The notes below the pieces were generated by a model. It was not told where the DNA came from and searched no databases. It saw only the letters and a list, made by a program, of their open reading frames with translations. This document shows, piece by piece, positions 30,513 to 35,054 of a stretch of 35,288 nucleotides of DNA (the first letter of the stretch is position 1; each line of letters opens with the position of its first letter). Both the position numbers and the translations under genes were made by a program. Source of the stretch: Betaproteobacteria bacterium (GTDB lineage: Bacteria > Pseudomonadota > Gammaproteobacteria > Burkholderiales > JACQAP01); NCBI GenBank assembly GCA_025351455.1, contig JANXVW010000193.1, positions 1 through 35,288 on the forward strand, given 5' to 3'.

Positions 30513-31013
30513 ATGAAAAAGCTTTTCACCATTGGCTACGAGGGCGTTGCGCTCGATGATTTCATACGTGCGCTCAAGACGGCCAAGATTGAAGTGCTGT
30601 TGGATGTCCGCGAGCTACCGATCTCGCGACGTAAGGGTTTTTCAAAGACCGCCTTGGGTACTGCGTTGACCGAGGCCGGCATTGCCTACCGCCACGAAAA
30701 GCAATTGGGCTCGCCCAAGACGATCCGGCATAGATTGCGAGAGGACGGTAATTACCCGCGCTTCTTCCGCGAATTCGACCGGTATCTGATCAAACAGTCG
30801 ACGTTGCTGGAGATGCTCGCCGAGAAACTTAAGGGCAATGTTGCGTTGATGTGTTACGAGAAGAACCACGAAGAATGCCATCGACGCTCGGTGGCCGATG
30901 CCTTGGCCGAACTGCTTGGCAAGACACCGATCCATCTAGGAGTGGGTGATCATGCAAGGGAAGGATCGGAAGCGGCGCGTTCGTATCCTCGTCAAGGCGT
31001 TTCCGCAGCCTAG
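30513..31013 (+). CDS. DUF488 family protein
   Basis: KKLFTIGYEGVALDDFIRALKTAKIEVLLDVRELPISRRKGFSK...LMCYEKNHEECHRRSVAD. Confidence 0.88.
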   Translation: MKKLFTIGYEGVALDDFIRALKTAKIEVLLDVRELPISRRKGFSKTALGTALTEAGIAYRHEKQLGSPKTIRHRLREDGNYPRFFREFDRYLIKQSTLLEMLAEKLKGNVALMCYEKNHEECHRRSVADALAELLGKTPIHLGVGDHAREGSEAARSYPRQGVSAA

Positions 31014-31782
31014 CGCGAAGCACGAAGAGACCGTCTGCTGTGCCGGCGTCACGGAGGACGGCCGTGAGCTACTTCGGCTTTATCCGGTCCGTTACCGCCG
31101 GTTGTCCAAGAGCGATCAGTTCGATCGCTATGATCTGGTCGAGATGACGACCACCAAGGCATCCTCGGACACGCGGCCCGAGAGCTACCGGGTCGATGAA
31201 GGCTCGATCCGCCTGATCCAACACGGCGGAATTTCCGAGGAGGCAAAAATAAGACTCTGGCGACCCTTCGTTGCACCGTCAATTGGGATATTAATCGAGG
31301 ACAACAAGACCTCCGGACGCAGCCTGGGTATCATCCGACCCCAGCTTGAGAATATCAAGTTCATCGTCAAGGAAGCCAAGGATAGCAACACCGAAGATCA
31401 AAAAATCGCCGATCTGATCTTCCACGAGCAGGCCTCGTTACTCGAAGACCCGCTAAAGCCGCTGGAAAAACCCAAGCACAGTTTCTCCTACCACTTCACC
31501 TGCGCGGACCCAACACGTTGCACCTGCGCCAAACACCCGCACACGCATCAGATCCACGACTGGGAAGTTCAGGCAACCTACTTCAATTACAAGCGAAAGT
31601 ATAAGACCGAGGAAGAAACGTTGGTGAAGATGCAACAGGCTTATCAGGAGAACATCCCAATACGCAATCTGCATTTCATCATGGGCACCATGGCTTCGCA
31701 CCCGAAGACCTTCATCGTGATTGGACTATTGCGCTCGGGCATGAACCCGGAGGAGTTATCGAAACAGCGAGAGTTGTTTTAG
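30952..31782 (+). CDS. Uncharacterised Cys/His-rich-centre protein paired with DUF488
   Basis: Overlaps DUF488 gene by 62 bp with its own aggag RBS-like site; conserved-looking CADPTRCTCAKHPHTHQIHDWEV segment. Confidence 0.7.
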   Translation: MQGKDRKRRVRILVKAFPQPSAKHEETVCCAGVTEDGRELLRLYPVRYRRLSKSDQFDRYDLVEMTTTKASSDTRPESYRVDEGSIRLIQHGGISEEAKIRLWRPFVAPSIGILIEDNKTSGRSLGIIRPQLENIKFIVKEAKDSNTEDQKIADLIFHEQASLLEDPLKPLEKPKHSFSYHFTCADPTRCTCAKHPHTHQIHDWEVQATYFNYKRKYKTEEETLVKMQQAYQENIPIRNLHFIMGTMASHPKTFIVIGLLRSGMNPEELSKQRELF

Positions 31783-31892: not shown

Positions 31893-33051
31893 TCAAACCC
31901 CGAATATTTGATCTCCTTTCTCCGTCGCAATTAGGACTTCTTTTAGCTTTTTGGCGCTATCTCCCAAGAAGGTTTTAAAGAAGTCATTTGCAGTCATTTG
32001 ATAGATCTCGACACGGGCTGGACTTATCTTGGTGAGGTTGATGATCTCGTTCATTGACTTCAGTGCCTGAAATCTCTCTACCCTGTCTATAAATTTCATA
32101 TTGTCCGGTGCAACTGCAGGATCGATGACTAACATCTTCTTGTTTAAACCAGAACTCAGGCTTTGAATAAGAATATTGTTGATGTATTTTGTCTTGAAAG
32201 CTATACCCGACGACGACGAACAGGCTAGCGGCTTTAAGTTTTTCGCGAAAGCCGCCCAGCAACGACAAGAACGGATCATAGGATTGCAGTTTCGGGCCCG
32301 AGCCGAATACGATTAACGGTCTGACTTCGTGCGGGACTCCTTGCTTTACCTCTTCGTCGGATTCATCGAAGTACCAATCCACGGAGCCGTGCAATTTGAA
32401 CAACTTCACTTTCGCTGAGTTATTAGGGTCGTCGAAATCTCCGGACCACCGTTTTTGCGAAAATCCGACATCCACCAACTGCTCCTGTTCATTGTTGAAT
32501 ACAGTTTCGAATATGAGATCGTAATTTAGAGAAAAGACCGATAGGTCAAAATTTTTGTCAGACTCTACGAGGTCCCTTATTGGTTGAAGTAACGCCTCTG
32601 CCTTTCCTTTTTCAAAATGCGTCCACTTTGTAATAAGCCTATCGTATGCGAAATCTAGGAATTCGCTAAACACCTTGTCGTTCTTTATCTCCCAGCCAGT
32701 GATTTTTCCATTCCAATTTCCGACCAAAGGCGGAGGAACAATGTATTCTCGGTCCAATATCTGTCGTAGCACTGCGACGAAGTCTTCAATATTTGTCAAT
32801 TCAAACAACTTTGACTCCGGATCGCCTTTCAGGGCTCGTTGATACACAAGACTTTGAATAATGAAGTCGTAAATCGACGAGTATTGGGAATCCGCTCCCG
32901 CTCCGGCTATTGCTAACTCGCTGACGTCCGATCTCAAACTTACGAGCATTTGCTTAGACGAAAGGCATCCGGCATCCATTGACGCTCCCGCCCCCAGCAG
33001 AAACACTGTTCTATCAAAAAGACTGCTGAGTTGAACGTCGCCCACGTTCAT
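31893..33051 (-). CDS. SIR2-like domain protein, apparent frameshift at A4 run (32187-32190)
   Basis: FLLGAGASMDAGCLSSKQM, SLNYDLIFETVF, FKLHGSVDW, VVGYSFQDK; the C-terminal part continues in another frame (YINNILIQSLSSGLNKKMLVIDP...IFGV). Confidence 0.82.
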
Positions 33052-35054
33052 AGAAACCAGAGAGACCGCTTCGCTACTTCAGAACTTGGTAAAGATTGTC
33101 CTCCAAACGCGGCGCTCATTTCGGCAACTTTTTCCGAGTACAAAATCGTAACCGGTTTGCCCTTTTGCTTGACGCTCCTCCAGTACATTCTGGAGAACTG
33201 ATACACTTGGTCTATCAGTTGCTGAATATCCTCGTTTGCCAATTCCTGAATGCTGGCCTTCGAAATCTTGATCCGCACAGGAAACGGAAAATCGTCAACC
33301 TTTGAACCCGTAACATCCGCATATCTAGTGTTGTTACAAAGCAAATAGTCCCCTCGCCGCAAAACTATACAGGTTCCGCTCATTGGCATTTTTCCCGGAT
33401 ATCCAATATCAAACGGGACTAGATCAGCGTCCTCGACGATGTGAGCCACGACGTAGGGAATCTTGAGGCCGAGAGCATCAAGCGCTGAGAGGACAGCTTT
33501 TTCTTCGGCCCTATTCATATGTTTGAAAAAGTGAATGACAAGCCGCTTTACTTCCGGCCACTCCTGAGGCACTGAGGATAAGATTGAGCGGAAATAACTA
33601 ATCAGATCGTTTACGGCGGAAACTTGGCTAGAGTCAAACCTAATGAACGTACCATCATTCTTGAAAGCAACCGTTGTACCGATGTAGACGTTGTTATCTA
33701 AGTCCCTAAAAGCGCCTAGCCCTACGACAAGATCATGTCGAATTGGGCGGCTTAGACGCCACGGAATACCACCGAGCTTTGCGAGGATCGCAATGGCGAT
33801 GTTGGGTAAAAAATAATTAAAATTCGGCAAATCAACGTTAGCTTTATATACAACCTGTGAGCTAATGTTCCGTTCCAGCAGCATCTTTTTTAGTCGAAAA
33901 TAAACGCCTCGTTTGTTTTCATCAATCTCATCTTTTTGGATTCTAGAGATATAGATCGCGATGTATTTGATAGCTGGGTCACATTGGATTTGCTGGAGTC
34001 GTGCTGATACTTCTTCGGTTGGATCTTCCTCCGCGTAGGAGATTGTCTTGTCTTTATCAAGTTTTAGCTCCAAGCCAACAAATCGATACAGCCCAGGAAA
34101 GCCCTTCAGGCCCCTGTTTAAACAGCTGTACAACCTATTGGCATGGTCGGCATCATCTTTGTGAAAAATGAAAAAGAATCTGTAACTGCCAGTCTGAACT
34201 GGCTGAAACGGTCCATATTCTTTGAGGCCGTTGTATGGACTGAAGTGAGTATGGTTTTCACCAAAGAGAAGGAGATTAGAATCTCTCGTGGCTCTAATGA
34301 CTTGACTTTCGCTTATTGGCTGAAAGCCCGATTCAAAGACTGTCAAAAGATTTCCAATAACCTTGCCGCGAAGGTGCTTCGTATAGAAGAGAAGGCTTTC
34401 TTCGTAGAATTTTCCATACTTATTTTGTACGCGAGAATAATTTGTAGAAAATCCTAGCTTTCTCCCCGCTTTGTAACTAACTACCGCTCGTGTCGAATCG
34501 GCCACCTTCTCTTGAGGAGTTATATCGCTCAATTTCTTCTGCGTGCGATCTGCAATTACCTTTGATACAACGTCGTCAAGTTGAGGTAGAGACGCCAAGG
34601 ATTTTTTAGTTATTTCGACTTCTCCCTCATACGAAATATTTAGGTGCCATAACTGTCCTTTGCACGCGTGCTGCTCTCGAGGCGCCAACGCACGAATAGC
34701 GAACCTCTTGTAAATGTCCGTTTCATTCCTCGTGGATTCGTGACTAAATTCTAGAGCGACCACGCTACCTATAAAATCGGACGACAGAATCAATCCCTGG
34801 CCAAAAAGATAGCTATGCAGCGACTTCGCTACGAGGCGCTTCAATACAGGAACGTTTTCCGCCGTTACTTTAAATTCTGAAGAACCTTGAAAAGGCGTCA
34901 CGTCCCAGCTAGCTTTCTCGCCATCGTCCGAAAAACCTACGCACGTTGGATAAATTTGGTTTGATCCGCCAGCGGGATCAGCGCTGACGTGAATCCTAAG
35001 CTCGGAAATGTTCAATTCGATTGGAACGAGATTAATTACAAGGTCCTGATTCAT
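33048..35054 (-). CDS. Prokaryotic Argonaute (long, catalytically degenerate PIWI; long-B-like)
   Basis: 668 aa; FGENHTHFSPYNGLKEYGPF, LPNIAIAILAKLGGIPWRL, RHDLVVGLGAFRD (no GID Asp), RLVIHFFKHMNRAEEKAV, YWRSVKQKGKPVTILYSEKVA, terminal LWFL. Confidence 0.9.
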   Translation of the reverse strand: MNQDLVINLVPIELNISELRIHVSADPAGGSNQIYPTCVGFSDDGEKASWDVTPFQGSSEFKVTAENVPVLKRLVAKSLHSYLFGQGLILSSDFIGSVVALEFSHESTRNETDIYKRFAIRALAPREQHACKGQLWHLNISYEGEVEITKKSLASLPQLDDVVSKVIADRTQKKLSDITPQEKVADSTRAVVSYKAGRKLGFSTNYSRVQNKYGKFYEESLLFYTKHLRGKVIGNLLTVFESGFQPISESQVIRATRDSNLLLFGENHTHFSPYNGLKEYGPFQPVQTGSYRFFFIFHKDDADHANRLYSCLNRGLKGFPGLYRFVGLELKLDKDKTISYAEEDPTEEVSARLQQIQCDPAIKYIAIYISRIQKDEIDENKRGVYFRLKKMLLERNISSQVVYKANVDLPNFNYFLPNIAIAILAKLGGIPWRLSRPIRHDLVVGLGAFRDLDNNVYIGTTVAFKNDGTFIRFDSSQVSAVNDLISYFRSILSSVPQEWPEVKRLVIHFFKHMNRAEEKAVLSALDALGLKIPYVVAHIVEDADLVPFDIGYPGKMPMSGTCIVLRRGDYLLCNNTRYADVTGSKVDDFPFPVRIKISKASIQELANEDIQQLIDQVYQFSRMYWRSVKQKGKPVTILYSEKVAEMSAAFGGQSLPSSEVAKRSLWFL

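Follow-up and report, generated by a model that had tools for sequence, protein, structure and literature searches.

A catalytically dead long-B Argonaute and a stand-alone SIR2 protein form a probable BPAS-type abortive-infection operon in a betaproteobacterial genome

An Argonaute (Ago) gene that runs directly into a gene for a SIR2-type protein raises the question of which prokaryotic Argonaute (pAgo) system the two represent. We addressed it for a pair of this kind in a betaproteobacterium, found at the right end of the window, by which we mean the whole stretch of 35,288 nucleotides analyzed, one entire contig of a 3.9-Mb genome assembled in 353 contigs. A preliminary description, made from the letters alone, had proposed a long-B-like pAgo with a separate SIR2 effector rather than the SPARSA arrangement. 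The pair's architecture, its residues, its lineage, and its co-inheritance are all open to direct observation, and we conclude, with a probability of about 0.88, that it is an abortive-infection operon of the BPAS type, in which a long-B pAgo is combined with the SIR2 protein bAgaS, as described for GbBPAS by Song et al. 2023 (PMC10620215). The features of the locus are collected in Table 1.

Table 1 Features of the Ago–SIR2 operon and its right-hand border, in window coordinates
Feature	Position	Strand	Basis or remark
Conserved C-terminal ~98 codons of SIR2, +1 frame, stop-free	31893..32186	(-)	inside ORF 32279-31893
SIR2 (SIR2_2, Aga_SIR2) NADase-type effector, 355 aa as assembled	31984..33051	(-)	ORF, profiles
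A-run (T-run on + strand), site of the SIR2 frame shift	32187..32190	(-)	no shift in intact relatives
ATGA stop/start overlap of Ago and SIR2	33048..33051	(-)	also 4 bases in L002, L003, L004
Long-B type Ago, 668 aa, catalytically dead PIWI	33048..35054	(-)	ORF, profiles, tree, structure, alignment
PIWI without nuclease tetrad, about residues 435-668	33051..33752	(-)	profile, alignment
MID, about residues 281-434, 5'-phosphate guide pocket predicted to be intact	33753..34214	(-)	alignment
N-L1-L2 part, residues 1-280, lengths suggesting PAZ reduced or absent	34215..35054	(-)	lengths, predicted secondary structure
Multi-copy IS-like repeat, start of a small basic ORF, contig end	35143..35288	(+)	

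The upstream protein is the Ago of 668 residues with MID and PIWI regions that had been proposed: residues 62-668 match the PADLOC pAgo profile PDLC02385 at 4e-160, and the Pfam Piwi match lies above its cut-off, whereas the only NCBIfam model that it matches, a Rhodobacter-type Ago, scores below the cut-off. To place it, we built a MID-PIWI tree of 48 rows, in which AfAgo, EcAgo, and RsAgo are represented by fragments taken out of alignments. The window Ago groups with these three long-B proteins and apart from six short pAgos (support 99/99 for the short clade and 93/90 for the split of long-B from short). TtAgo, on a long branch, is the only long-A row, and the root and the three-way split among long-A, long-B, and short are weak. 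The fold agrees with this placement, with an AlphaFold model (pLDDT 85) whose top Foldseek match is RsAgo (TMq 0.71, E 2e-29). The window Ago is thus a long-B pAgo.

Alignment to TtAgo (NC_005838) bears out the loss of two catalytic aspartates, D478 being replaced by G447 in the motif GLGAFR and D546 by F510 in IHFFKHMN. No other row of the alignment carries Asp or Glu in either column. The column of TtAgo D660 holds E641, and that of E512 falls within a poorly aligned loop. With G447 and F510 the DEDX tetrad is not intact, which rules out an active long-A pAgo. The guide pocket, by contrast with the tetrad, is predicted from the alignment to be intact: Y385, K389, Q400, and K426, including the YK motif, correspond to AfAgo Y123, K127, Q137, and K163, and these positions are invariant across 40 aligned sequences. 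The stretch from the N terminus to MID is 281 residues long, compared with 338 in a sister of RsAgo (L094) and 328 in TtAgo. Because this stretch is about 50-60 residues shorter than in RsAgo-like proteins, we suggest that the PAZ domain is reduced or absent, its boundary being blurred in the AlphaFold model.

The downstream protein matches the Aga_SIR2 profile PDLC02414 at 6e-54 and a SIR2_2 domain, with no match in NCBIfam. The GAGAS and GYSFQD motifs are present, as are N176 and H221, which are conserved in the relatives and, judging from the sequence, are the likely NADase residues. Read across the frame shift discussed below, the gene has about 386 codons, the length anticipated in the preliminary description and in agreement with the 377-398 residues of intact relatives, which are single-domain proteins. 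A structure prediction from four sequences reached a pLDDT of 40, and the model was set aside.

A dead PIWI protein encoded in one operon with a SIR2 protein could also be expected of SPARSA, in which a short pAgo is paired with a SIR2-APAZ protein and the outcome is likewise NAD+ depletion (PMC10781750). Here, however, the Ago has an N-terminal half of 280 residues and clusters within long-B, outside the short pAgo clade. In the SIR2 protein only the SIR2_2/Aga_SIR2 type of domain was found and no APAZ, and since the intact relatives are only 377-398 residues long, there is no room for one. On tree placement, SIR2 length and domains, and N-to-MID length, we reject SPARSA as extremely improbable. 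The preliminary description had argued likewise from an Ago too long for a short pAgo and a SIR2 too short for an APAZ fusion. It had named an APAZ domain, a place in the short clade, and an intact DEDX tetrad as findings that would speak against its reading, and we found none of the three.

Equivalent pairs occur in distant hosts. A gammaproteobacterium (L002), a planctomycete (L003), and an ignavibacterium (L004) each carry an Ago gene joined by the same ATGA overlap to a SIR2 gene, intact in all three, with BLAST identities to the window proteins of 39-40% for Ago and 45-52% for SIR2. In a SIR2 tree, the nine SIR2 proteins that adjoin long-B Agos (those of the window, of L002-L004, of Leptolyngbya and Hymenobacter plasmids, and of G505 and G731) form one clade with support 98/94, and for the 19 SIR2 proteins outside it no Ago was found in the flanking stretch that was fetched. 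Because the Ago-linked SIR2 proteins form this clade and branch largely as their Agos do, the pairing is old and has been inherited jointly. That the two genes are mere neighbors in a defense island, without functional coupling, might be read from the other candidate defense genes nearby (matching PDC-M19A/B). An ATGA overlap identical in four distant hosts, together with a clade of Ago-linked SIR2 proteins that largely follows the Ago tree, makes this very improbable.

Plasmid-borne SIR2-coupled long-B pairs from Leptolyngbya and Hymenobacter (L085, L087, L088, and L127) constitute a second BPAS lineage. The Leptolyngbya plasmid SIR2, annotated as "hypothetical", has 304 residues and is without the LHGS and GYSF motifs. 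Among plasmids, no close relatives of the window Ago were found, only distant ones. The sole Ago found on viral contigs (L084, from IMG/VR, on a contig classed as viral) is a dead protein of the orphan type.

The operon looks horizontally acquired, since both genes have a GC content of 45% as against 60.5% across most of the contig. It adjoins a multi-copy repeat that recurs on six further contigs of this genome, in two cases at the first bases of the contig, and the assembly breaks at this repeat beside the operon. Ago is absent from all three same-genus genomes searched, and Pfam Piwi carriers number 4 among 299 genomes searched in the host phylum, this genome included, so Piwi genes are uncommon there. 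On the other side of the operon, and convergent with it, lie a DUF488 gene and an overlapping partner gene (30513-31782, plus strand; GC 54%). The partner matches the PADLOC candidate defense families PDC-M19A (7e-37) and PDC-M19B (3e-45), and the two genes may have arrived together with the operon on one acquired island.

Most of the nearest Agos are found without a SIR2 gene. Among the best 80 relatives in GTDB representatives, three have SIR2 beside Ago and 77, nearly all from Bacteroidota, are without it. These 77 Agos (L005-L081) are mostly 680-705 residues long, and in the rows of the Bacteroidota clade that we inspected the catalytic positions are lost likewise. A SIR2 of this type adjoins Ago in none of the 77 loci, which mostly belong to this Bacteroidota sister clade, and a search of 19 sister-clade genomes for one elsewhere returned none, apart from one weak match at 3e-10. 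As the window branch and the second SIR2-linked lineage carry homologous SIR2 proteins, loss in Bacteroidota is the simpler account, and the distribution suggests that this clade lost the effector from a SIR2-bearing ancestor. The MID-PIWI tree nodes behind this have support from 89/86 to 100/100. Tentatively, and at slightly less than even odds, we propose the fuller scenario in which the window operon is part of a small branch that kept SIR2, while the Bacteroidota clade, derived from the ancestor of that branch, lost it altogether and now works in another way. Long-B pAgos without a partner have been described as needing explanation, with their function open (PMC10620215). If the scenario is true, such effector-less, non-cutting Agos would act by binding alone or with another partner, and the window pair would be the nearest comparison to the Bacteroidota Agos that still has an effector gene.

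Several other features of the sister-clade loci were recorded. A small XRE-like helix-turn-helix ORF is present in 16 of them, often directly upstream of Ago, and RND-type efflux genes lie near Ago in 19. At one locus (L075), Ago is present as two ORFs of 270 and 435 residues, corresponding to the N half and MID-PIWI; this is either a split long-B pAgo, like those of PMC10954474, or the result of a frame shift or stop.

As assembled, the SIR2 gene of the window is frame-shifted right after GYSFQD, residues past about 288 being out of the conserved frame, at a cost of about 98 conserved C-terminal residues. The +1-frame segment that follows extends the same Aga_SIR2 profile (229-303/313, 9e-9) and is 44% identical to L002. 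We consider a programmed frame shift unlikely, as the closest relatives read the same site in one frame. With its frame interrupted as assembled, the activity of this copy is uncertain, and it may be inactive. The locus could then be a decaying remnant, with a real lesion and a dead effector, leaving the Ago on its own like those of the Bacteroidota sister clade. The frame shift is indeed present in the assembly, the operon lies at a contig edge next to the multi-copy repeat, the sister-clade Agos persist without SIR2, and the toxicity of free SIR2 in GbBPAS (PMC10620215) would make loss of the effector selectable. The downstream codons are nevertheless open, conserved, and free of any other lesion, and the Ago ORF is intact. 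The lack of a second lesion points to a very recent event or to a sequencing or assembly error in the homopolymer, so that the copy has been either recently inactivated or mis-assembled. On balance, we regard a decaying remnant as possible but unlikely.

For a BPAS-type operon, the mechanism can be sketched from GbBPAS and from other inactive pAgos, on which we model our account of the type of guide, its target, the association of Ago with SIR2, and the depletion of NAD+. In GbBPAS, GbAgo restrains SIR2, which is toxic when free and requires its catalytic residue N155, and the system depletes NAD+ upon sensing the CloDF13 plasmid (PMC10620215). Judging from its pocket and its relatives, the non-cutting window Ago would bind a 5'-phosphorylated RNA guide in MID and, once guided, may recognize complementary invader DNA. 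If the operon behaves as GbBPAS does, Ago would keep the co-translated SIR2 in check as long as no target is present and would release or activate it when one is recognized. SIR2 would then hydrolyze NAD+, and growth stop or cell death would precede the spread of the plasmid or phage.

Among known systems, GbBPAS, which we compared through its published description, is closest in plan. It shares with the window a two-gene operon in which a dead long-B pAgo comes first and a stand-alone SIR2_2-type protein follows, the absence of APAZ, and the conserved NADase Asn and His. The catalytic Asn is residue 176 in the window protein and 155 in GbbAgaS, and the window gene, unlike that of GbBPAS, is frame-shifted as assembled. 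Single-chain long-B pAgos whose PAZ is reduced or missing and which have a ThsA-like SIR2 downstream appear in the available part of Manakova et al. 2024 (PMC10954474), where we found no functional test of that SIR2 subtype; the window Ago resembles them in its single chain, its probably reduced or missing PAZ, and its downstream SIR2 effector gene. AfAgo itself differs in being split into two chains and in having another type of partner. A literature search for more recent structural studies of long-B pAgos coupled to SIR2 found none. SPARSA has in common with the window a dead PIWI and a SIR2 effector, but the window Ago includes an N-L1-L2 half and falls in a different clade, and its SIR2 is without APAZ. 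RsAgo and EcAgo (BPAN) share the long-B fold and the dead PIWI, RsAgo being the best fold match, but they have a nuclease partner, are about 63-110 residues longer, and, in RsAgo, include a PAZ*. The window system is therefore already known in kind, as a divergent member of the published BPAS architecture (PMC10620215; also noted in PMC10954474). The few known SIR2-coupled long-B Agos gain with it a branch whose identity to its nearest relative is only about 40%, and BPAS becomes tied to the large Bacteroidota clade of dead Agos that apparently have no effector.
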